DNA from: an uncultured Bacilli bacterium
GTDB taxonomy: Bacteria; Bacillota_I; Bacilli_A; RF39; UBA660
Length of the DNA stretch: 32,824 nt
Direction of reading: 5' to 3'
Assembly: GCA_944371305.1 (NCBI GenBank)
Contig: CALVXM010000014.1
Span: 1 to 32,824 of the forward strand
Shown here: piece by piece, positions 461-32,824 of the stretch
How the letters are laid out: each line of letters starts with the position of its first letter
Numbering within the stretch: position 1 is the first letter of the stretch
Notes under the pieces: generated by a model
The model's input: the letters and a program-made list of their open reading frames with translations, nothing else
The model's database searches: none
What the model was told of the DNA's origin: nothing
Translations under genes and position numbers: made by a program

Positions 461-1617
461 AATTCTTTTTTTAATAAATCCTTATATGTGTTCACACCAG
501 GTTGGTCAAATGGATTTACATGTAATAAATATCCTCCTGTGGCAGCTGCTACTTCAAAGAAATGAATAAGCATACCTAAGTGCAATTCATCTAGTTCATC
601 TAAAGTAATGATATTACTTTCACAACCAGCCATAAAATGAGCTTCAGCTACTTTATCCACTGCAATTTGATTTAACTCTTCTAATTTATTATTTTTTGTT
701 TTATAATTAATAACGGTTTCAAAAATAATTGGATTTCCATCTTGATAAAATTGTCCTAACGAATGTAAATCTCTAGTGTTAATAGAAAGGCTTGGGAAAA
801 TGCCTTTTTTATTTTTTCCTTGAGTTTCACCAAATAATTGTTTTAACCAGTCTCCAAAATATTGTAGTTTTGGTTCATATATGGAAAAAATTTCAATAAA
901 TTTTTTCTTTTTATATAATATATCTCTAATAATAGCATATTCAAAAGCTTTATCTTGATTATAGTTTTTTGCACCTTCTAATAAGTTATCAATATTTATT
1001 CCACTAACTGCTATTGGCAGTAAACCGACAGTAGTTAAAACAGAATATCTTCCTCCTATTTGTCTAGGAATGTTAAAAGAAGTAAATCCTGAATTAGCAA
1101 GTATTCTTAACTTACCTTCTTTTTCATCGGTTGTTATGATTATTCTTTGTTTTAATTCTTCATCATTATACTTTTGTTTCATTTTTTGAAAAAGTTGAGT
1201 AAAGGTTTCAATTGTTTCTAAAGTGGTACCTGATTTTGAAATAACATTTATTATCGTTTGCTTATTCTGCATATAGTTTAATAAGTCATCTAGATATGTA
1301 CCAGAAAGAGAAGTGCCAGCAAAAATAATTTCAGGATTGGTTTTGTTGAAATAGGGAGTTAGAGCATTAATAATAGCTTTAGCGCCTAAAAATGATCCCC
1401 CTATTCCAACGACAATAAATAATTCACAATTATTTTTAATATATTCACTTATTGTTTTAATTTTGTTGACTTCTTCATATGAGATGCAGTTATCAATATT
1501 GTACCAATCCAACATTTCACCACCATTTTTCAAAGTTTCCTTAATTTTAAAAATTTCCTTATTATATTTTTTTAATTTCTTCGGTTTTTGATACGTATTA
1601 AAGTCAAAATTTAACAT
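445..1617 (-). CDS. pgi: Glucose-6-phosphate isomerase
   Basis: Cytosolic enzyme that interconverts glucose-6-phosphate and fructose-6-phosphate. The protein has 390 residues, shorter than the roughly 450 usual in Bacilli. Family motifs are present in order: GIGGSFLGAKA and SKSGTTLET (sugar-phosphate binding), GGRYSVLT (first PGI signature), GETQGKNKKG (region of the catalytic Glu), HSLGQ, and the C-terminal signature FDQPGVNTYK with its catalytic Lys. The usual Glu of GVExxK is Asn here. The ATG at 1617 follows a strong AGGAGG site that lies inside the end of the glucan synthase gene; the two genes overlap by 14 nt, which implies co-transcription and probably translational coupling. Family assignment is firm. 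Confidence 0.96.
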   Translation of the reverse strand: MLNFDFNTYQKPKKLKKYNKEIFKIKETLKNGGEMLDWYNIDNCISYEEVNKIKTISEYIKNNCELFIVVGIGGSFLGAKAIINALTPYFNKTNPEIIFAGTSLSGTYLDDLLNYMQNKQTIINVISKSGTTLETIETFTQLFQKMKQKYNDEELKQRIIITTDEKEGKLRILANSGFTSFNIPRQIGGRYSVLTTVGLLPIAVSGINIDNLLEGAKNYNQDKAFEYAIIRDILYKKKKFIEIFSIYEPKLQYFGDWLKQLFGETQGKNKKGIFPSLSINTRDLHSLGQFYQDGNPIIFETVINYKTKNNKLEELNQIAVDKVAEAHFMAGCESNIITLDELDELHLGMLIHFFEVAAATGGYLLHVNPFDQPGVNTYKDLLKKELKKGN

Positions 1618-4600
1618 TATTACCTCCTACTGAAACAATTATCTCATGTTTCTGATTATCAAAATTTAAAGGAATATATTGTGTTTTAATGATATGGCCA
1701 TCCATAGTTATTTGTTTTTTATCTTGTACATTAACTATGATGTGGTATTTAGTGTTATTAATATTATAATTGATTTCAAATTTTTTCCATTTATTTGGTA
1801 TATGTGGCTCAATAAACAATTTGTTACCCTCTTTTTTAAATCCTAAAATATCGATTAAGGCTACTCGATAAAACCATCCGGCACTACCTGTATACCAACT
1901 CCAACCACCGTGTCCTTCAAAATCTTGATTACTATAAATATCAGCAGCTATAACATATGGTTCGATTTTATATTTATCAGTAGTTTCTTTACTTTTAGTT
2001 CGTTCAATAGGATTAATCATTTGATAGGTTTTGTAAGCTAAATCATATTTGCCTAGCTTTATTAAAGCTTGTATATACCAAGCAACAGCATGTGTATATT
2101 GCCCACCATTTTCTCTAATTCCATTTGGATAATTCATGATATATCCTGGATTGTTTTCATTTTTTGAAAAAGCAGGAGTTAGCAATTTAACAATATTAAG
2201 ATTTTTATCGACTAGTTGATCATCGATAGCTTTTAAAATTGATGGTATTTGTTTTTTAGTAGCAATACCAGTTAAAATGGCAAAACATTGAGAAATTAAA
2301 TCTATTTTACATTCACTATTATCTTTTGATCCAAGTTTTTGACCATTGTCGAAAAAGGCTCTTAAATAATAATCACCATCCCAAGCTTTTTCTAACAGTG
2401 ATGTTTTTAAAGAGTTTTTTAATTGTTCCCAATCATTAGTATTTAATTTTTGATCATATTTATTACTTATATAGATAAACTTGTCTAGACAATCATATAG
2501 GAAAAAGCTCAACCATACGCTAGTTCCACGTCCCTTTTCTCCTACCTTGTTCATGCCATCATTCCAATCTCCACCACCAATTAAAGCAAGGCCATTAGAA
2601 CCTATACTTGATTGAGCTTTTTTGATAGCTAAATGGCAATGTTCAAATAAAGTAGCTTTTTCTAAAGAGTAAGTATAATTAATACCTTTTTCCATTTCAT
2701 TTTCTTTTAAGCTTTCTCCTTGAACAAATGGTATTTTTTCTTTTAAAATATCATAATCATTAGTAATTTTTATATATTCATAGACAGCTTGAATTAACCA
2801 TAAATAATCATCTTTGTAGCGTGATCTTAAACCGTTATTAGTTTCTTTATGCCACCAGTGAAGAACATCGCCTTCTGTAAATTGATGTTTAGCATTCCAT
2901 AAAATTTGTTTTCTGGTTATATCAGAATTAATAGTACAAATATTCATTGCATCTTGTAATTGATCACGGAAACCATATGCTCCTCCTACTTGATAAAAAC
3001 CAGCTTTAGCGAATAATCTTGAGGTAATTGTTTGATAAGCTAACCATCCATTAACCATATAATTGAAACTGTCATCAGGTGTTTTAATTTGAATTTCTTC
3101 TAACATATTTTTCCAGTATTTTTCAACCTTTTTTTCTTCTTTTTTGATTTTGTTAATGGTATTATATTTGTCTAATAAAGGTTCAACCTCTTCATTAGCT
3201 CCTAAAATGAAAGCAAATTCTTTTACTTCATCATGTTCAAGATAAATAACTGTTTCCATTTGTTTATAGATAATTTTTTTGATTTCAACGTCGATAATTG
3301 GTAATGTACAACTCATAAAAGTAGTTAAATTTTTAAAATGTTGACTATATTTATTGATTAATGCAATATAATTTTTTTCAATGTTGAACTCACTTAAAAT
3401 ATATCTTCCTGTTTTTTCTTCTGTAACACCAAGACAAGGATTGATCCAATATTTAAAGGTTAGACGTTGTTTTTTAGAATTATTATTTTTAACTTTAATT
3501 GTATAAAATTTAATTGGATCATCTGTGGCAACAAATTGTTTTAATATAATGTCAAAACCGTTAATTCTACCTTGCCAACTTATGCTACCAAAACTCATTT
3601 CACAGTAATCATAATTAAGATTGATATCATTAATTTTGATACCTTCTGATATATCATTTAGTAATGGATCATTAGTCCAAGAAGTTAATTTATATTCGCG
3701 ACTGTTATTAGCATAAGTAAATCCTGTTGCATTATTAGAAATGATACTACCAAAGTTAGGATTAGCTATAACATTACACCAGATTAAAGGTGTATCAGAA
3801 CAAGTTATAACATATTTTTTTCCATTATTGATAAATCCACCATAATTATTATAAAATTTTAAATTTTTATAATTATATAATATAGGTAAACTGTCTTTAA
3901 TTATTCTTTTTTCTTTTCTAGAAGTTATGTTTGATTTTTGTAACTCTTTAACAAAAGATTCTAAGGTATGATGTTTTTTACTATCGATATTTAATCTAGC
4001 TACAGTTTTAAATAAATTAATTTCTTCAAAAGAAACATCATTTGGATCGATAATGTATATATTACCAGGAATTTTATTAAAACTATTTATAGCATACATA
4101 TGGTACTTTTCATCATCAATTTCTTTAGCTATGATATCTTTATCGTCAAGACGACTATTTAAAATGACAAGATCTATAAAAATAGACTTACTTTTATAAT
4201 ATTCAAAGGCATGTAATAATTCTTTTATTAAACTTAAATCATCGGAGCTTTCCACTTCTAAGAAAATAATAGGTCTATCTCCAGATATTCCAAATCGCCA
4301 TAAATTTGTTTGATTTAAGGTATTGTTTTTAACAATATTTTCTCTTTCTTCGGTTATTAAAATGTGGCTAGTTTGATATAAATAATTTAACATTGTATTA
4401 TAAATACGCATATCATGTCCTGTAATATTAACTATTTTATTACTAACATTATTCATGATCGTGGCGACTTCAAAAGCTTTTTGAGAAATGTTTTCTTTAG
4501 AGTTAAAAGTTCTCACAATATCTAAAACTTGTTCTTTTGATTTTCCAAAACCACTAATTAAATATACCGTTTTCTCACCATTACTAGGAATCGTTATTTG

Positions 4601-7600
4601 ATTTCTTAAACTGATAATAGGATCAATACAAGTTCCAATTTTATTAGATAACTTTTGATTTAAAGCGATAGGATTTTCACCGTTATGATTTCTCCCAATA
4701 AAATTATTTCGATCTGTTTCATAACTATATTTTTGATTTGGATTGTCAATTAATAATCTATTAATTAAATAATAATGACCATTTTTATCTCTTAATTTAC
4801 GGTGCATGATAATAGCATTATTTTCTTCATCATATTCACTTTGGATGAATAAATTTTGAAAGGTTCTATGACTGATATCATCAATGTTATCCGATAAAAT
4901 TGGCTCAGTATAAGTAGTTAATTCTAAAGTTTTATTTTCATTGCTAGTATTTTTAAAGGTAATTTTTCTTATTTCGGCATGATGTGTTTTAGTGACAACT
5001 ACTTCTGTAGTGGTTATAATTTCGTTGTCAGACCTAATGAATTTAATTTTATCTAAAGCGAATACCACTTCGTATTTTTCGGGCATAACGTTAATTGGGG
5101 AATAGGTATTTGACCATATTTTATTTGTGTTTATATCTTTAATGTATAGGAATAAACCATAATCTTGTTCTGTTAGTTTTCGATAACGATTCATTTGAAT
5201 TGTGCGATAACGACTAAAACTATTACCACGGTCATTCATGAAGACACTATATTTAGAATTTGATAAAACTGATAGTTCAGGGAGTGTTGCTAGATTATGA
5301 AATACTCTTATATCATTAATAAATGGTTCTTTATCGTAAGTGTATTTTTTATATTTTGCAATATTAATATCGATAATTGGTTTTAATTGAACTTTTTCTT
5401 TATTTAAAATTTCAAATGCGTGATTATTGATATCATTAATAAAGTATTTTTGTAAAATATTATCTTTTAAAGTATTAGTAATACTTCCCAAAATCATCCC
5501 TTGATGATGTGCAAAGTAAGAAAGAACAACTTGCTTATCTTCAGTATCATAAGATTCAAAAAAGCCGTATTGACCTATTAAATTTAAGCTTTCTAATTTT
5601 TTCATATTGTAAATGACATCTTTAGGAAATAAAGAAAGAGCTAAAATAGAACTGTAAGGCGAAATAACAATTCGATTATTATTTTCCTCCTGTAATTTTA
5701 AATAAGGTGTTGCAAAAGCTTTATATTTATAATTTTGGGCATCATCTAATTCGTTATAAGCTGATTCCGATATGCCCCATGGATAATTAGGATTAATTTC
5801 TCTCATAAATTCTTTTTGAGTGAAAAAAGCAAAATCATAACTTTCATCAATTAAAGTATTATCGTAACTTGGAATAAACAAAAGAGGCATAAAATATTCA
5901 AATGAAGTTCCTGACCAAGAGACTAATCCTTTTTTTCTTTTATAAGTTGTAAGCGTTTTATCCAAATTAAACCAATGTTTGACTGGAACATCACCTTTAG
6001 CTATAGCAACAAAACTAGTAATTCTACTTTCACTAGCAAATTTATTATAGTTGAATGGTTCTAACAATCCTTCGTCAGCATTATATCCAATACTAAAAAC
6101 ACCTTGATTATAAAGACAAGTGAAATTGGTTTGATTAATTAATGTTTCTATTTTTTTTACTAATTGAGTGTTGTCAATTTTCTTTAAGAATTCTTTTACT
6201 GTTATTAGACAAGCCACAAAATTACCACTATCAACCGTTGATATAAAATTAGGATATAAAATTTCTAATGTATCAATGCGGTACCAGTTATAAAGATGAC
6301 CATTCCATTTTTTTAACTTTTCCACAGTATTAATAATTTTGCTGATGTAATCGATAGTTTTATCTTTATTAATAAATTCTAGTTCGTAAGCAGAAATAAT
6401 TGAAGTTAATGATAAACCAATATTAGTAGGAGATGTTTTATAATCTAACTTTTGTTCACGATTTAATTGATAATTATCCGGAATTAGATAATTATTTTTA
6501 GAAATTAAATTGTCTTCAAAGAACTTCCAAGTTAAAAATGCTTTATCTTTTAAATAATTTTGTTCGGTAACTTTTAATTTTTGTTCTGGGGTTTTAATGT
6601 TTTTGCTTATTGCATGAGCTAAGAAAGGACCGATTATAAAAAATATAGCAATGATAGTATTTTCAATTGGATAATTAGAAAGGATTTTAGAAAAAATGAT
6701 TAAAGCTAAAGCAACTAAATAATTTATCCAAAATTGTTTTAAATGATTGCTTAAAGTTGCAGAAACTTGTTTAGCAGCATCTTCAGCAGTCATCCATTGT
6801 AGTAAATGTTTTTTACTAATAAACATTCGATAAAGAGCTTTAACAAATGATTTAAAATATAAATAAGCATTAAATGGAATACTTGTAAAAACAGATAAAG
6901 TTCTCAGTATAAAAGCTTGGTAACCAAAAGCCATAATTTTGTAATATTTTAAATTAGTGCTTTTTTGAATTACAAATAATTGGATTAAGTAAGAAATAAC
7001 TGGCAACATAACAATTAGTAAAACAAATAAAAGCCACCAATAAGGGTGAGTTATTGAACAACTAGCTAAAGAAAGTAAAATAATTAATAAGGAAAAATCA
7101 AGTAATCCTCTTCTAATATTGTCGAAAATTTTCCACTTTCCTAATAAATTGATTGGGTTTTTAATTTTTTCGTTCTTTTCATTTTTGACCATTTTTTTGA
7201 GCCAAGCAATTATTTGAATATCTCCTCTTGCCCATCTTGATCTTCTGGTTGCATCAACTAAAAATTTGGCTGGGAAATCATCGACTAATTCAATATCAGT
7301 TGGACATCCACACCTTAGATAATTTCCTTCAATTAAATCATGACTTAAAATTAAATTGTTGGGGAAACTACCTTTTAAAATCTGTTGGTATATTTTTAAA
7401 TCATAAATTCCTTTACCAGTGAAACTACCTTCACCAAAAACGTCTTGATAAAAATTAGGTGTTATTGTAGTGTAAGGATCTAATCCACCAATTCCAGCAT
7501 ATATTTGAGAAAATAATGATTGATTAGTTGATTCAATATCAACACTGATTTTAGGCTGTAAAATACCATAACCCTTAATCACTTTGGTTTTTTCTTCATT

Positions 7601-9256
7601 TAAAATAGGTTTATTTAATGGATGAGCCATGGTTCCAACTAATCTTAAGGCACTATTTAAGATTAATTGAGTGTCGACATCTAGAGTTATAACGTATTTG
7701 ATTTCATGACTAAAATTTTCAAATGTATGAACTTGAAATAAATTCTTTTGTTCAGCTTTAGATAAGTTTCCTAAAATCAAATCATTAAAATGTAATAGAG
7801 CTCCCCTTTTTCTTTCAAATCCTAAATAAGAGTTTTCACCTTTATTATATTTTCTAGTTCGATAAGCAAAATAAAATAAATTTTTACCATATTTTTTATT
7901 TAGCTCCTCAACTTTTTTAACACCTGCTTTTTTAATTTCTTCATCTTTTTCATAATGTTCACATTTACATTCACAGGCATCTGCTAAGAGTGTAAAATAA
8001 AGATTAGAAGATTTATTTGATAGATAAAATTTTTCTAAGTTAGTAAAAACTTCTTCAACTTTTTCTTTATTTTTTACAATTGTAGGTACTACAACCATTG
8101 TTTTGTATTTGCTTGGGATATCTTTTTCAAAATCTAACTTTGGAAGTGGTTTAGTTGGGAATATTTTCAAATAAATCTTGTTTAGGAAAGTTATTACAAT
8201 TTCACTGATCGGAATCCATAAAATAATAAATCCTAACCATTTTGCTTTAATGAAATAGTTTGTTAAAAACAAATCAATAATTGTAGTTAGAATAACAATT
8301 ATGGAAATATAAATAATTGTCTTTAAATATTGATTTTGTTTTGGAAATAAAAGATTTCCTATATTATTATCTTTATCAATTAATTCTTTAGCAAAATCTT
8401 CAATATTTTGCTTGTTTTTTTTAGCAAGTTTTATTAATTGCTTTCTATAAAGATTTTTAGTTTCTAAAGTCATAATTGAATAAAAAGGATCTTTATTTAA
8501 AATTTTTTCAACTGGACATAATTTATTATGAAGATTTTCTAATTTTATTAAATTAGTTTTTTGAATACTATAGAAAATATTAGCTATTAAAATATCATTA
8601 TTAGTGCTTTCTAGATGCTCATCATTAATTATTTTTTTTAATGAAAGATCTTTATCATTAAGTAACTGATGAAATTGTTTAAAAATGTTATTAGTTAAAT
8701 TTCCGAGGTCTTTTAATTTTTCATTTAAGTAAACTATATTAGTAGGTTTTTTATAAAAATCAGCTTTAAGATAATCTTTTAACACAATATTTTTTTTATT
8801 TAAACCATCTTTCTTAATTATATTGATAAGTTCATCTATTTCTTTTCTTTGTCTTAAAACAGCTTTTTCTTTAAGACAAATTTCATTAACTTTTTGTATT
8901 AAAAGAATTGATAAAGCAATCGGAATTATTTCTATTTCTTGATATATTAAATGAATGTTATTATCTTTGCAGTAATTCTTAACTTCGATAATCAATTTTT
9001 CTTCATCTATTTTATAGTTGTTTTTTTCTAAAACATTTTTTAATAGACTCATTATATCGTTGTTTTTAATCAAATATTTATTGTGTTTTGAATCTTTTAA
9101 AAATTGGTTAATATGCTCTTTTTTTTCGACAATCAAATAGTAATTATCGACGATCCATTCGTTAGAAATACCAATAAAATAATGTTTTTTAGTAATTTTC
9201 ACTAATTCATTATAATATTTAGTAATATTTTTAAAATCTTGCTTAATTTTAATCAT
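1604..9256 (-). CDS. ndvB: Cyclic beta-1,2-glucan synthase (NdvB/ChvB/Cgs type)
   Basis: A giant membrane enzyme of 2550 residues that makes beta-1,2-glucan from UDP-glucose, cyclises it and trims it. Visible modules: an N-terminal region (1-310); membrane segments near 313-365; a GT84 glycosyltransferase (about 375-700) with LLADA, the DxD in TLDVDTQ near 525, HDLIEG near 638 and RSRWARGD near 675; further membrane segments at about 715-890; a glucoamylase-like domain of the GH144/GH162/GH189 clan (about 930-1300, with WSGTSFEYFMPLL); then a C-terminal GH94 phosphorylase-like part (about 1310-2550) with GFRDQLQDA near 2095, GGGDWNDGMN near 2228 and GGWSWYTGSAGW near 2455. Brucella and Agrobacterium homologues are nearly 2900 residues. 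It starts at the ATG at 9256 and ends in TGA inside pgi. It occupies almost a quarter of the window. Confidence 0.95.
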   Translation of the reverse strand: MIKIKQDFKNITKYYNELVKITKKHYFIGISNEWIVDNYYLIVEKKEHINQFLKDSKHNKYLIKNNDIMSLLKNVLEKNNYKIDEEKLIIEVKNYCKDNNIHLIYQEIEIIPIALSILLIQKVNEICLKEKAVLRQRKEIDELINIIKKDGLNKKNIVLKDYLKADFYKKPTNIVYLNEKLKDLGNLTNNIFKQFHQLLNDKDLSLKKIINDEHLESTNNDILIANIFYSIQKTNLIKLENLHNKLCPVEKILNKDPFYSIMTLETKNLYRKQLIKLAKKNKQNIEDFAKELIDKDNNIGNLLFPKQNQYLKTIIYISIIVILTTIIDLFLTNYFIKAKWLGFIILWIPISEIVITFLNKIYLKIFPTKPLPKLDFEKDIPSKYKTMVVVPTIVKNKEKVEEVFTNLEKFYLSNKSSNLYFTLLADACECKCEHYEKDEEIKKAGVKKVEELNKKYGKNLFYFAYRTRKYNKGENSYLGFERKRGALLHFNDLILGNLSKAEQKNLFQVHTFENFSHEIKYVITLDVDTQLILNSALRLVGTMAHPLNKPILNEEKTKVIKGYGILQPKISVDIESTNQSLFSQIYAGIGGLDPYTTITPNFYQDVFGEGSFTGKGIYDLKIYQQILKGSFPNNLILSHDLIEGNYLRCGCPTDIELVDDFPAKFLVDATRRSRWARGDIQIIAWLKKMVKNEKNEKIKNPINLLGKWKIFDNIRRGLLDFSLLIILLSLASCSITHPYWWLLFVLLIVMLPVISYLIQLFVIQKSTNLKYYKIMAFGYQAFILRTLSVFTSIPFNAYLYFKSFVKALYRMFISKKHLLQWMTAEDAAKQVSATLSNHLKQFWINYLVALALIIFSKILSNYPIENTIIAIFFIIGPFLAHAISKNIKTPEQKLKVTEQNYLKDKAFLTWKFFEDNLISKNNYLIPDNYQLNREQKLDYKTSPTNIGLSLTSIISAYELEFINKDKTIDYISKIINTVEKLKKWNGHLYNWYRIDTLEILYPNFISTVDSGNFVACLITVKEFLKKIDNTQLVKKIETLINQTNFTCLYNQGVFSIGYNADEGLLEPFNYNKFASESRITSFVAIAKGDVPVKHWFNLDKTLTTYKRKKGLVSWSGTSFEYFMPLLFIPSYDNTLIDESYDFAFFTQKEFMREINPNYPWGISESAYNELDDAQNYKYKAFATPYLKLQEENNNRIVISPYSSILALSLFPKDVIYNMKKLESLNLIGQYGFFESYDTEDKQVVLSYFAHHQGMILGSITNTLKDNILQKYFINDINNHAFEILNKEKVQLKPIIDINIAKYKKYTYDKEPFINDIRVFHNLATLPELSVLSNSKYSVFMNDRGNSFSRYRTIQMNRYRKLTEQDYGLFLYIKDINTNKIWSNTYSPINVMPEKYEVVFALDKIKFIRSDNEIITTTEVVVTKTHHAEIRKITFKNTSNENKTLELTTYTEPILSDNIDDISHRTFQNLFIQSEYDEENNAIIMHRKLRDKNGHYYLINRLLIDNPNQKYSYETDRNNFIGRNHNGENPIALNQKLSNKIGTCIDPIISLRNQITIPSNGEKTVYLISGFGKSKEQVLDIVRTFNSKENISQKAFEVATIMNNVSNKIVNITGHDMRIYNTMLNYLYQTSHILITEERENIVKNNTLNQTNLWRFGISGDRPIIFLEVESSDDLSLIKELLHAFEYYKSKSIFIDLVILNSRLDDKDIIAKEIDDEKYHMYAINSFNKIPGNIYIIDPNDVSFEEINLFKTVARLNIDSKKHHTLESFVKELQKSNITSRKEKRIIKDSLPILYNYKNLKFYNNYGGFINNGKKYVITCSDTPLIWCNVIANPNFGSIISNNATGFTYANNSREYKLTSWTNDPLLNDISEGIKINDINLNYDYCEMSFGSISWQGRINGFDIILKQFVATDDPIKFYTIKVKNNNSKKQRLTFKYWINPCLGVTEEKTGRYILSEFNIEKNYIALINKYSQHFKNLTTFMSCTLPIIDVEIKKIIYKQMETVIYLEHDEVKEFAFILGANEEVEPLLDKYNTINKIKKEEKKVEKYWKNMLEEIQIKTPDDSFNYMVNGWLAYQTITSRLFAKAGFYQVGGAYGFRDQLQDAMNICTINSDITRKQILWNAKHQFTEGDVLHWWHKETNNGLRSRYKDDYLWLIQAVYEYIKITNDYDILKEKIPFVQGESLKENEMEKGINYTYSLEKATLFEHCHLAIKKAQSSIGSNGLALIGGGDWNDGMNKVGEKGRGTSVWLSFFLYDCLDKFIYISNKYDQKLNTNDWEQLKNSLKTSLLEKAWDGDYYLRAFFDNGQKLGSKDNSECKIDLISQCFAILTGIATKKQIPSILKAIDDQLVDKNLNIVKLLTPAFSKNENNPGYIMNYPNGIRENGGQYTHAVAWYIQALIKLGKYDLAYKTYQMINPIERTKSKETTDKYKIEPYVIAADIYSNQDFEGHGGWSWYTGSAGWFYRVALIDILGFKKEGNKLFIEPHIPNKWKKFEINYNINNTKYHIIVNVQDKKQITMDGHIIKTQYIPLNFDNQKHEIIVSVGGNNVKF

Positions 9257-12321: not shown

Positions 12322-13137
12322 ATGAATCCCGTTTTACTAGATCTTGGTTTTATAAAAATATATTGGTATTCGATAATGATTTTATTGGGTGTATTTGTTG
12401 GGGGATCTTTAATTTTACGTGAATGTAAAAGATTTAAAATTTCTGAAAATTATGTTATCAATATGATTTTACTTTGTATGATTTTTAGTATTATTGGAGC
12501 AAGACTTTATTATGTTGCATTTAATTGGAGTTATTATAGTCATAATTTGCTCGATATCTTGAAAATCTGGGAAGGTGGACTTGCCATTCACGGTGGAATT
12601 TTATTTGGATTGATTTTTATTATATTTTATACTAAAAAATATAAAGTTAATACTTGGCGGATGTTAGATATAATTGTAGTCGGACTTATTATTGGCCAAG
12701 CTATAGGACGTTGGGGTAATTTCTTTAATGGTGAAGCTCATGGACCTATTACTAGTTTAGAAACTTTACAAAATTTATTTATTCCTAATTTTATAATTGA
12801 TGGAATGAATATCGGTGGATCTTATTATCACCCTACTTTTCTTTACGAGTCTTTATGGTGTCTAATAGGTTTTATCATATTATTAATTCTTAGAAGAAGA
12901 CGTTATTGTAAAATTGGTCAAACAACAGGTTTATATTTTATTTGGTATGGAATTGGTAGATTTTTGATCGAATCATTACGTACTGATAGTTTGATGTTAG
13001 GATCTTTCAAAATGGCTCAAATTATTTCAATTGTACTAGTTGTTGTAGGTATAATAATTCTGATTTTAAAATCTCGTGGTTCGAAATTAGAAAATAGATA
13101 TAATGACAAGGAGAATATAGATGACATACAATTTTGA
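12322..13137 (+). CDS. lgt: Lgt, prolipoprotein diacylglyceryl transferase
   Basis: Membrane enzyme that moves diacylglycerol from phosphatidylglycerol onto the lipobox Cys of preprolipoproteins, the first step of lipoprotein maturation. The protein has 271 residues and about seven membrane segments. Key motifs: IYWYSIMI near the N-terminus, the conserved HGG at 90-92, the Lgt signature GRWGNFFNGEAHG starting at 129, and HPTFLYE near 174. A client lipoprotein with an LTGC lipobox is encoded at 23284-23826. The start follows a purine-rich GGAAGGAAAG site. The 3' end overlaps trxB by 17 nt, indicating one operon. Confidence 0.97.
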   Translation: MNPVLLDLGFIKIYWYSIMILLGVFVGGSLILRECKRFKISENYVINMILLCMIFSIIGARLYYVAFNWSYYSHNLLDILKIWEGGLAIHGGILFGLIFIIFYTKKYKVNTWRMLDIIVVGLIIGQAIGRWGNFFNGEAHGPITSLETLQNLFIPNFIIDGMNIGGSYYHPTFLYESLWCLIGFIILLILRRRRYCKIGQTTGLYFIWYGIGRFLIESLRTDSLMLGSFKMAQIISIVLVVVGIIILILKSRGSKLENRYNDKENIDDIQF

Positions 13138-13996
13138 TTGTGTTGTAGTCGGTTGTGGAATTGCTGGTATGACAGCAGCGATCTACCTGAAAAGATCAAA
13201 TGTCAACGTTTTAGTGTTAGACAATGATGCTCCAGGTGGATTGTTAAATAAAATAAGTGTAGTTGAGAATTATCCTGGTTTTAATCGAATTAGTGGACCA
13301 GATTTAGCTTATAAAATATATGAACAAGTTAATGAGTTAGGTATTGAAGTTAGATATGGCAAAGTTTTGGAAGTTAAAGATCATATTATAACTACTGACT
13401 TAGAGCAGATAAGTGCTGATAAAATTATTTTGGCAATTGGTCGAAAAGCCCGTAAGCTAGAGAATACTAATAATTTAAAAAATGTTAGTTATTGTGCAGT
13501 TTGCGATGCAAATTTATATAAAGATAAAATTGTTGCAATAGTTGGGTATAGTAATTCAGCAGTTGAAGAAGCTTTATATTTGGCAGATATTTGTAAAAAA
13601 GTTATTATTATTAGTCGTGGAGAAAAACTAAAAGCTGAAGAAATTTTAATTGATAAGGTAAATAATAAAAATAACATTGAAATTCAATTTAATTGTGTTA
13701 TAGAAACGTTAAATAGTGAAAATAATATTTTAACAAAAATTAATACCAATAAAGGTTCATTTTCGATTGATGGATTATTTATTGCTATTGGTTATGAGCC
13801 AAATACTGAATTTTTAAAAGATTTAAAAAAAGATAATGGCTATATAATTGTTGATGAAAAAATGAAAACTAATGTTGATTATATTTATGCTTGTGGCGAT
13901 ATTATAAAAAAAGATATTTACCAATTGACTACTGCCACTGGTGAAGCTACTATTGCTGCTATTAATGTGAAAAAGGAATTGAGTGTAAGGAGTTGA
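13121..13996 (+). CDS. trxB: Thioredoxin-reductase-like flavoprotein with atypical NADPH site
   Basis: FAD-dependent disulfide reductase of the low-molecular-weight thioredoxin reductase family, 291 residues against about 310-320 in typical TrxB. The N-terminal FAD motif is GCGIAG (11-16), the redox-active pair is CAVC (125-128), and the C-terminal FAD segment is YACGDI. The NADPH-domain motifs are poor: the usual GGGDSA is GYSNSA (142-147), and the HRRxxxRA motif that grips the NADPH 2'-phosphate is SRGEKLKA (165-172). The electron donor may therefore be NADH, ferredoxin or something else, as in the clostridial ferredoxin-dependent flavin thioredoxin reductases. The start is set by AAGGAG just before the ATG at 13121, inside lgt. 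It ends in TGA, close to the next gene's start. Confidence 0.85.
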   Translation: MTYNFDCVVVGCGIAGMTAAIYLKRSNVNVLVLDNDAPGGLLNKISVVENYPGFNRISGPDLAYKIYEQVNELGIEVRYGKVLEVKDHIITTDLEQISADKIILAIGRKARKLENTNNLKNVSYCAVCDANLYKDKIVAIVGYSNSAVEEALYLADICKKVIIISRGEKLKAEEILIDKVNNKNNIEIQFNCVIETLNSENNILTKINTNKGSFSIDGLFIAIGYEPNTEFLKDLKKDNGYIIVDEKMKTNVDYIYACGDIIKKDIYQLTTATGEATIAAINVKKELSVRS

Positions 13997-14001
13997 TTTA
14001 A

Positions 14002-15663
14002 ATGTCATATAAAAAATCAGGTTTTACTTTAGTAGAATTGATTGGCGTGGTAATTTTATTAGGATTAATTGCTTTAATTGCTATACCACCAATTATGAAT
14101 TCAGTTAGAAAAACTAAAGGTGAAATCAGTGATGCTAGCAAAGAAATTTTATATAGTGCAACAGCATCATACCTTAGCGCTCATGAAAACGAATATCCTA
14201 AGACTAACGGTAATGTTTATTGTATAACTCTTAGTGATCTAGTAAAAGAAGAATATTTAGCTACAGAAGTTTATGATTCAGTAACAGGTGAACCAATTTC
14301 TTTGGATAACAAGGTTGAAGTTATTGTCGGTAATGGCAGTTACAGTTACAATTTAAATAACAATTGTAATTCTTCTTCTAGAAGTTTAATAGCTACATTA
14401 TTAAATCAATATAAAACTTCTAATACTACGGGATTACTTAGAGATAACACCAATCCTAATATATATTATTACAAAGGTACTAACGCTCAAGTTAACAATA
14501 ATCATTTATGGTATGGTGGTTTTGCTTGGCGTGTTATTTCAATCGATACAAATGACAATACTTTAACGTTAATAAGTCAACAACCTTTGACTGTTTTACA
14601 ACCGGCCAATAAGGTTTGGACAAATAAAACTCAATATGAATCAAGTTATATTAATAATTGGTTAAATGAATATTTTTATAATATGTTAGCAGTTAATATT
14701 AAAAATAATATTGTTAATAGTACTTTTAATGTGGGAATAGCTAGCAATGTTGATGAAATAACGACAAATCAAAAAGTTGGTTTACTAGATTATGATCAAT
14801 ATATTAAAGCTGGTAGCACTAATTCTTATTTAGATATAAAAGATAATTTTTGGTTAGGTAATCGTAATAGTGCTAGTGAAATAAAAAATGTTACATATAA
14901 TGGTACAACTTATAATAATGATGTATCTTTGGCTGATGGAATAAGACCAGTAATTAAAATCAAAGATATAACTATTACAACTGGATCTGGTACGATGTTA
15001 GCTCCTTATAGTATAGAACAAAAATCTACTAATACTTCAGATGTTCAAGTTGGTGAATATATAACTGTACCTGTTATAGGTGATTATTGTGGAAGTGACA
15101 ACAAGTGTACTTTTAGAGTAGTAAGTAAAGATAGTGATAGTATTAAAGTAGTATTAAATGGATTATTACCTACTGTAAGTCAATATGGAAATAATTCTAC
15201 AATTACAAAACAACATACTATATATACTTCTCTAGATAGCTTTTTTATCAGTGTCAACGATAGTTATAAATATTCAAATAACAAAGCGTTTAATATAGGA
15301 GCCTATTTGTCAACTAGTAATGTGGGTCAAAATTATGAAGATATAAAAGATGAAACAATAAATTATAATGTTGGGTTACCGACTATTGGAGAATTATTTA
15401 GCGGTAACGATATAGATTTATCAACAACTGGCTCAAAGACTTTTGTCGATATAAATACGATAGAAAATTCTTCAATATCAGATTATTACTGGTTAATGAA
15501 TCGTTATAGCGATGATTTAGTTCGAAGAGTAAACAATTTAGGTCATGGAGATGGTGCTGGTCCAGCCAATTCACACGGAATTCGTCCTGTAATTTATTTA
15601 AAAAATAACTTAACTTTTACAGGTGGAAATGGTACCGCTCAAAATCCTTATACGTTGGATTAA
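14002..15663 (+). CDS. Large type IV pilin-like protein with duplicated C-terminal domain
   Basis: The 553-residue product has a class III signal: MSYKKSG/FTLVELIGVV, with prepilin-peptidase cleavage expected after Gly7, the conserved Glu at mature position 5 (E12) and a hydrophobic helix to about residue 32. A pilin-like headpiece follows to about 125 with one Cys at each end. The rest is two related domains (about 128-345 and 350-553). Each contains an (F/W)RV(I/V) strand and ends in GIRPVI-(K/L)K, then a G-x-GT-x-x-PY-x-(I/L) motif; this resembles the DUF6273-type C-lectin-like repeats of gut Bacillota proteins. The start follows AAGGAG that overlaps the end of trxB, so it is in the lgt-trxB operon. 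It would act outside the membrane, perhaps as a minor pilin or adhesin. Confidence 0.82.
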   Translation: MSYKKSGFTLVELIGVVILLGLIALIAIPPIMNSVRKTKGEISDASKEILYSATASYLSAHENEYPKTNGNVYCITLSDLVKEEYLATEVYDSVTGEPISLDNKVEVIVGNGSYSYNLNNNCNSSSRSLIATLLNQYKTSNTTGLLRDNTNPNIYYYKGTNAQVNNNHLWYGGFAWRVISIDTNDNTLTLISQQPLTVLQPANKVWTNKTQYESSYINNWLNEYFYNMLAVNIKNNIVNSTFNVGIASNVDEITTNQKVGLLDYDQYIKAGSTNSYLDIKDNFWLGNRNSASEIKNVTYNGTTYNNDVSLADGIRPVIKIKDITITTGSGTMLAPYSIEQKSTNTSDVQVGEYITVPVIGDYCGSDNKCTFRVVSKDSDSIKVVLNGLLPTVSQYGNNSTITKQHTIYTSLDSFFISVNDSYKYSNNKAFNIGAYLSTSNVGQNYEDIKDETINYNVGLPTIGELFSGNDIDLSTTGSKTFVDINTIENSSISDYYWLMNRYSDDLVRRVNNLGHGDGAGPANSHGIRPVIYLKNNLTFTGGNGTAQNPYTLD

Positions 15664-15690
15664 ACGATTATCAAAGCGATAATCGTTTTA
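15662..15690 (+). terminator. Intrinsic terminator after the pilin gene
   Basis: A perfect 11-bp stem (AAACGATTATC at 15662-15672, GATAATCGTTT at 15678-15688) with a 5-nt loop is followed by a T-rich tract. It begins inside the pilin stop codon. Confidence 0.8.
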
Positions 15691-15715: not shown

Positions 15716-15751
15716 TAGACAAATAACAAATAAAATTAATTGGGTGATATT

Positions 15752-16699
15752 ATGAATAAAAAAGTTGTAATTTTAGGTGGAGGAACCGGATTGTCTACCC
15801 TACTTCGTGGTTTGAAACAATTTCCTATTGATATAACTGCTGTTGTTGCAGTATCTGATGATGGTAGAAGTACTGGCAAATTAAGGCAAGAATTTAATGT
15901 TCCTGCTGTTGGTGATATAAGACAAGTAATTGTTGCTTTATCTGAAACTGAACCATTAGTTCAAAAATTATTAAATTATCGTTTTAAAACCTCTAGTGAT
16001 TTAAATGGTCATGCTTTGGGTAATTTATTATTGACTGGTTTAATCGAAGTAGCTGGTGATATGTCATCGGGAATTGAATCATTAGGGAAAATATTAAATT
16101 TAAAAGGTAAAGTATTACCGCTTACCGAGGATAATGTTGTTTTAATGGCTAAAATGGATGATGATGCTATTATCGAAGGTGAACACAACATTACCGAATA
16201 TAATGGAAAAATAAAAGAAGTGTTTTATAAAGAAGAACCCCATGTTCTTAATGAGGTTGTTAAAGAAATAGAAACAGCTGATTTAATAATTTTAAGTATG
16301 GGTAGTTTATTTACTAGTATATTACCTAATTTAATTTGTAAAGAGATAAAAAAAGCTATCGATAATAGTAAAGCTGAAATTATGTATATTTGTAATATCA
16401 TGACACAACCTGGGGAAACAGACAAATTTAAGGCTAGTGATCATGTTAATACAATTAACAACTATTTAGGAAATAAAAAGGTATCTATTATTTTAGCTAA
16501 CAATGGTCCAATAACGAAAAAAATGAAAGAAAAATATGCGAATTTAGAACAAAAAGATCCGGTCGTATTTGATAAACAAAATTTAAAAAACATTTGTAAC
16601 AAAGTAATTGCTGATAATTTTGTCGCTGTAACAGATGAGACATTAAGACATGATATTATTAAATTAGGTTTCCATATTTATTCATATTTAATGTTTTAG
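15752..16699 (+). CDS. yvcK: YvcK, gluconeogenesis factor (CofD-like family)
   Basis: In Bacillus, YvcK binds UDP-sugars and is needed for growth on gluconeogenic carbon and for normal cell shape. It is related to the lactyl-phospho-transferase CofD but is not that enzyme. The 315 residues begin with the nucleotide-binding loop GGGTGLSTLLRGLK, followed by VAVSDDGRSTGKLR, PAVGDIRQ and the GHALGNLLL segment, all hallmarks of the family. The ATG at 15752, after GGGTGAT, is preferred to an upstream TTG at 15740. In Bacilli the gene normally lies between rapZ and whiA; here whiA follows after 9 nt but rapZ is absent and the pilin gene takes its place. Confidence 0.95.
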   Translation: MNKKVVILGGGTGLSTLLRGLKQFPIDITAVVAVSDDGRSTGKLRQEFNVPAVGDIRQVIVALSETEPLVQKLLNYRFKTSSDLNGHALGNLLLTGLIEVAGDMSSGIESLGKILNLKGKVLPLTEDNVVLMAKMDDDAIIEGEHNITEYNGKIKEVFYKEEPHVLNEVVKEIETADLIILSMGSLFTSILPNLICKEIKKAIDNSKAEIMYICNIMTQPGETDKFKASDHVNTINNYLGNKKVSIILANNGPITKKMKEKYANLEQKDPVVFDKQNLKNICNKVIADNFVAVTDETLRHDIIKLGFHIYSYLMF

Positions 16700-32382: not shown

Positions 32383-32824
32383 ATGAAAAAAGGCTTTACA
32401 TTAATCGAATTATTGGCCGTAATAATAATACTTGGGATAATAGCATTAATAACTTTTCCAATAGTCGATAATTCAATAAAAAATAGTAAGCAAGCAGCAT
32501 TAGAAAGAACCGTTGGTAGTATAGAAGAAGCAGCTCATAATTATAGTTCACAAAATAATTTAGGATATCCTGAAGAAGAAAAAGCAATATCATTAGATGA
32601 ATTAAAAAGTAGTGGTTTTTTGACTTCTGATATAACTAATCCAGTAACCAATGAAGAAATGACAGGATGTGTATTATATAGGTGGGATGAGGCACATAAT
32701 CAATACGTATTTCGCTATGATGAAGAATGTGACAGTAATGATGATGAAGATGTCGCATTGGTAGGTTCACCAATAGAAGAAAAAGCAAAAGAATTAGTTT
32801 ATGAAAATAATGCTTGTAAAACAG
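32383..32824 (+). CDS. Type IV pilin-like protein, 5' part (gene runs off the right edge)
   Basis: The frame from the ATG at 32383 stays open to the window end (147 codons). It begins MKKG/FTLIELLAVIIILG, a class III prepilin signal with cleavage expected after Gly4, Glu at mature position 5 and a hydrophobic helix to about residue 25. The headpiece has the same plan as the pilin at 14002: a helix, then ISLDEL, a short loop with PVTNEE and a pair of Cys (about 107 and 123) around a Tyr-rich strand. An acidic Asp/Glu stretch and a new helix follow, so more domains may lie beyond the edge. The start follows GAGGAG. Confidence 0.85.
   Translation, partial: MKKGFTLIELLAVIIILGIIALITFPIVDNSIKNSKQAALERTVGSIEEAAHNYSSQNNLGYPEEEKAISLDELKSSGFLTSDITNPVTNEEMTGCVLYRWDEAHNQYVFRYDEECDSNDDEDVALVGSPIEEKAKELVYENNACKT

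Follow-up and report, generated by a model that had tools for sequence, protein, structure and literature searches.

A two-headed type IV pilin-like protein between trxB and yvcK, probably a fixed former target of a diversity-generating retroelement in an uncultured gut bacterium

The window analysed here, a stretch of 32,824 nucleotides from an uncultured Bacilli bacterium, encodes between trxB and yvcK a 553-residue prepilin-like protein, P0001, with two related C-terminal domains, as originally predicted. Sister genes elsewhere in the genome carry related heads in which mismatches to the template repeats (TRs) of a diversity-generating retroelement (DGR) are biased towards adenines, and P0001 itself is probably a two-headed member of this family that was once such a target but has since become fixed. 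The original prediction, which had seen P0001 as a possible adhesin, thus stood in part; the DGR-diversified head family and the roughly 32 prepilin matches of the genome had been missed. The features of the window that matter here are:

13121–13996, plus strand: trxB, ending 5 bases upstream of the P0001 start
14002–15663, plus strand: P0001, 553-aa type IV pilin-like protein with two DUF6273-type heads (open reading frame, Pfam, paralogues)
14002–14106, plus strand: class III signal and hydrophobic N-terminal helix, residues 1–35 (Pfam N_methyl, alignment with solved pilins)
14107–14367, plus strand: pilin headpiece (stalk) with Cys74 and Cys122 (paralogue comparison)
14368–15018, plus strand: head 1, DUF6273 domain, residues 123–339 (Pfam, homology to head 2)
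14866–14949, plus strand: slot matching DGR variable region (VR) 1 of sister genes, without adenine bias
15019–15660, plus strand: head 2, diverged DUF6273-like domain, residues 340–553 (hhalign, repeated GIRPVI and GTxxxPY)
15505–15588, plus strand: slot matching VR2 of sister genes, adenine bias not clear
15662–15688, plus strand: terminator-like hairpin, before yvcK without an intervening TR cassette
15740–16699, plus strand: yvcK (profile matches)
32383–32824, plus strand: second prepilin, cut through by the contig end

The translation of P0001 begins MSYKKSGFTLVELIGVV and contains the class III signal that had been proposed for it, MSYKKSG-FTLVEL, with cleavage expected after Gly7. The Pfam N_methyl match (residues 4–28, 1.9e-4) lies barely above the cut-off and TIGR02532 falls slightly short of its own (score 16.0 versus 16.3); residues 4–63 align with solved type IV pilins. 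The protein is unusually long for a pilin, and its headpiece bears the anticipated cysteines (Cys74 and Cys122; head 2 has two more at positions 363 and 369). A domain search of the C-terminal region, as the original prediction had suggested, returned DUF6273 at residues 200–321 (9.5e-10, 39 bits versus a gathering cut-off of 23.5), and the two heads of about 215 residues each are homologous over 155 columns (hhalign, 98.2%, E 5.9e-14), the DUF6273 assignment of head 2 being made via this alignment to head 1 only. The headpiece gave no hhalign profile match to either head. Both heads contain GIRPVI (residues 313–318 and 526–531) as claimed, while the second repeated motif has three residues between its halves, GT-x-x-x-PY, and not the two that had been given. 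Downstream, the proposed terminator corresponds to one terminator-like hairpin, found where 0.3 would be expected, with a weak T run. DUF6273 has been reported as a C-type-lectin fold and as a DGR target in phages (PMC10743442, PMC11792537). Our assignment of this fold to the P0001 heads draws on Pfam and this literature because the two predicted structure models were unusable (pLDDT 32 and 35, exceeding 70 in the N-terminal helix only).

The genome, a fragmented metagenome-assembled genome (MAG) of 1.14 Mb in 47 contigs that is 92% complete, encodes one copy each of PilB (C8:40017, 4e-127), PilC and the prepilin peptidase PilD, the latter two adjoining each other on C26; no retraction ATPase was seen in it. 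Peptidase and assembly ATPase, on whose presence the original prediction had staked itself, are thus both encoded. N_methyl prepilin matches number 33, of which 32 lie above the curated cut-off, although contig ends cut some matches and could have inflated the number of genes slightly. Cleaved by this peptidase, P0001 would enter a PilB/PilC-driven filament or a membrane-anchored pseudopilus as a minor or tip-type subunit, and its two C-type-lectin-like heads may bind ligands; display as an adhesin on a filament, as had been suggested, is plausible from the sequence. That P0001 instead serves secretion or competence as a pseudopilin whose heads play no part in adhesion seems improbable to us: weak GspG and ComGC matches (N-terminus only) and the single PilB, PilC and PilD fit such a role, but neither a pair of lectin-type heads nor as many as some 32 prepilin matches would be usual for a secretion pseudopilus, and the diversified heads of the sister genes described below suggest recognition. 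Besides the type IV system, a tentatively Tad-like locus encodes a CpaF-type ATPase and a CpaB/RcpC-like protein (G000:C6:32000-40000, L060), three very long prepilins of about 800–880 residues stand in tandem (G000:C1:21700-28500, L051), and a prepilin near PilB carries an ALK/LTK-type glycine-rich domain (PF12810, 1.4e-46; G000:C8:38053-39390, L062:10054-11391).

The heads of P0001 (residues 116–552) recur at 50–61% identity on C5, C26, C4, C29 and C22, joined in these paralogues to different stalks, and truncated versions occur on C1, C11 and at another site of C5. Conversely, a prepilin on C12 has the same stalk type (58%) joined to an unrelated, FGE-sulfatase-like head, so that recombination has shuffled heads and stalks. 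The least conserved parts of the heads are two stretches at about residues 289–316 and 502–529 (0.52 versus 0.78 elsewhere, p 8e-12). Recent gene conversion from silent cassettes of the Neisseria type is unsupported, as the paralogues are just 66–73% identical at the DNA level, and scans of viral contigs found no relatives. The FGE-sulfatase-like heads occupy the C-termini of prepilins or fragments at four places (G000 C12, L069; C5, L064; C8, L062; C26, L123) and end in a variable stretch ahead of SSRAVLS, resembling another DGR-type target; no TR for them was found among the loci examined.

An Asn-rich, template-like copy of the variable stretches led us to search for a reverse transcriptase (RT). 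C23:1-2069 is a DGR locus, containing an upstream TR, a MutS-I-like protein (MutS_I, 2.4e-5), Avd and RT (PF00078, 1.8e-17; phrog_1423, 8.4e-78). Avd is matched by NF033474 (5e-10) and by the PHROG family 'Avd protein of DGR' (7.7e-14); its score of 39.6 stays below the curated NCBIfam cut-off of 80 and is still significant in three libraries. The MutS domain I-like protein between TR and Avd comprises 136 residues (L122:349-759) and is also present in the RT loci of six congeners. The TR 3’ end occurs seven times in the genome: in five TR cassettes (C23, the end of C1, C5, C15 and C30), four of which lie apart from the RT gene, and in two pilin–TR hybrids (C11 and C1:97540). Each cassette combines a hairpin (ACACCTTGCC...GGCAAGGTG), GGGTGTAAG, a 75-base core and about 140 conserved bases that close with a terminator-like stretch. 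Across the genus we counted 29 TR 3’ ends in 13 of 18 genomes (reversed-pattern control, 0); seven of the 29 lie beside RT genes, the remainder having no RT within the flank examined. RT relatives are present in 68 of the 141 genomes of the family. RT 3’-end remnants with stops and 61–62% identity (G000:C2:104307-104519, G046:C26:2425-2580) mark earlier DGR copies that have decayed. The two hybrids and a third in genome G158 (G000:C11:37358, L076; C1:97540, L055; G158:C15:10886, L204) are target genes that run into the 3’ end of a TR cassette and have lost the second head; they represent either VR–TR recombination or assembly chimeras, all genomes compared being MAGs or drafts in which hybrids and contig ends at repeats may be artefacts. 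Several contigs of the present genome end in TR-type repeats.

The gene order uvrB-lgt-trxB-pilin-yvcK-whiA is as had been claimed (profile matches). The original prediction further held that the pilin occupies the place of rapZ. RapZ (PF03668) was indeed not found in the genome, by a search of imperfect sensitivity that also missed the Bacillus subtilis control; the replacement itself is rejected, as the congeners examined have no rapZ in the gap before yvcK, with or without a pilin there, and some leave it empty. Loss of rapZ and presence of the pilin are thus separate events. Fifteen congeners with yvcK were compared. Three have nothing in the gap (one of these also lacks trxB) and one has a 450-base spacer. 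Three contain an intact prepilin, accompanied by a TR in two of them, and one retains a head remnant plus TR. At contig ends, two show a TR and one a P0001-type head. One congener has a transposase in the gap and one another open reading frame; in the last two the gap is cut short. The order trxB-prepilin-yvcK, for which a survey of neighbours had been proposed, therefore exists in some congeners, with the gap otherwise occupied or empty. In congener G157, a prepilin with P0001-type heads and a TR sit between trxB and yvcK. The pilin is a variable occupant of this gap and not a successor of rapZ. Elsewhere in the window (1604-9256, minus strand), a 2550-residue protein with GH94 catalytic, supersandwich and glycoamylase domains resembles the back half of cyclic glucan synthases and is large given the small genome.

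VR mismatches to the TR core were counted separately for adenines and other bases. The C25 prepilin (L057) differs from the C15 TR at 15/25 and 12/25 adenines in its two VRs and at 0/50 other bases (p 1e-9 and 2e-7); with mismatches at TR adenines only, it is a DGR variable protein. P0001-type heads on C5 (14/28 adenines versus 6/47 non-adenines) and in genome G150 (17/28 versus 7/47) share the bias but have drifted somewhat, and some sister VRs carry many non-adenine changes too. For P0001, the VR2 slot gave 17/33 adenine versus 21/56 other mismatches (p 0.14; bias not clear) and the VR1 slot 10/32 versus 29/58 (no adenine bias). A partial alignment of VR2 yielded 11/17 versus 11/32 (p 0.04), which we do not take as a signature because the non-adenine mismatches stay at 11/32. 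Neither slot has a DNA-level match to a TR, and no TR lies beside the gene. P0001 thus shows neither mismatches confined to adenines nor an adjacent TR, and we therefore call it a fixed relative of the targets, probably retired. It could in principle still be an active target if its TR is located elsewhere or dropped out of the draft assembly, in line with about 92% completeness, contigs ending at TRs and congeners with a TR exactly at the trxB–yvcK site. We give this little credence, since the interval between pilin and yvcK is fully assembled without a TR and P0001 differs from every TR found about as often at non-adenines as at adenines.

Its former status as a target is inferred from relatives, because its own slots lack a clear adenine bias. 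This leaves some room for the view, unlikely but deserving more weight than continued activity, that P0001 never was a target: an ordinary two-headed pilin-like adhesin, from or beside which the targeted copies evolved, its slots reflecting drift at exposed loops. The missing bias would agree with this, as would a full-length homologue on the same stalk in genome G046 (57%, at a different site) that likewise shows many non-adenine changes. However, the heads closest to those of P0001 (C5, 60–61% identity) have TR-like VRs and are followed, about 180 bases further on, by a TR, and a target–TR unit occupies the very same locus in G157. As P0001 has neither an adjacent TR nor a DNA-level match to one, it is most likely a former target, now fixed, that keeps the architecture and the hypervariable slots.

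According to our preferred model, P0001 belongs to a two-headed family of this genus whose heads are rewritten by the DGR: a single RT/Avd/MutS-I locus would work with TR cassettes scattered beside the target genes, remote TRs being served by the RT in trans, and TR RNA would be copied with errors at adenines into a VR at the ligand-binding face of each head. The odds lean slightly towards the wider proposal that a cellular DGR in reduced-genome gut Bacilli acts in trans on dispersed cassettes of a prepilin with its own TR, diversifying both lectin heads and leaving fixed copies such as P0001, with the trxB–yvcK gap as a recurrent landing site. If so, DGR-diversified surface structures would extend to type IV pilin-like proteins, each subunit having two variable heads and a single RT drawing on several template cassettes in dispersed positions, and fixed copies like P0001 would be a record of the variants retained. 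In an uncultured gut genome of about 1.1 Mb, a head-editing mutator alongside some 32 prepilin matches suggests a major investment, be it in variable attachment or in evasion of immunity or phages.

Our literature search, with subscription papers mostly outside its scope, returned no report of type IV prepilins as DGR targets and, for orphan or trans templates, nothing matching the dispersed-TR arrangement; pili are absent from the main text of Roux et al. (PMC8144416). With type IV pilins and pseudopilins of the GspG/ComGC type, P0001 has in common the GFTLVEL signal, the N-terminal helix and the presence of prepilin peptidase and PilB/PilC in the genome; it differs from ordinary members in its 553 residues and the addition of two lectin-type heads. 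The DUF6273 DGR targets of gut phages (tentaclins, Faecalibacterium prophage; PMC10743442, PMC11792537) contain the same Pfam domain and, like our sister genes, a VR at its C-terminal end and DGR-mediated change. The phage proteins are receptor-binding proteins, whereas those described here are cellular prepilins with two heads per protein and one VR per head. For Bacteroides, DGR diversification of type V pilus tip adhesins has been described (Macadangdang 2024, as related in PMC12632263), so that there, as proposed here, a DGR acts on pilin-borne ligand-binding domains in gut bacteria. Type V pilins are lipoproteins that undergo cleavage at the cell surface as the pilus is assembled, in contrast to the type IV prepilin signals of the present proteins. 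Cyanobacterial DGRs (PMC7517822) likewise serve several targets away from one RT, with the CLec domain on different N-termini. There, the remote targets match the TR or TRs of the DGR loci, whereas in the genome studied here the TR cassettes themselves are dispersed beside the targets.
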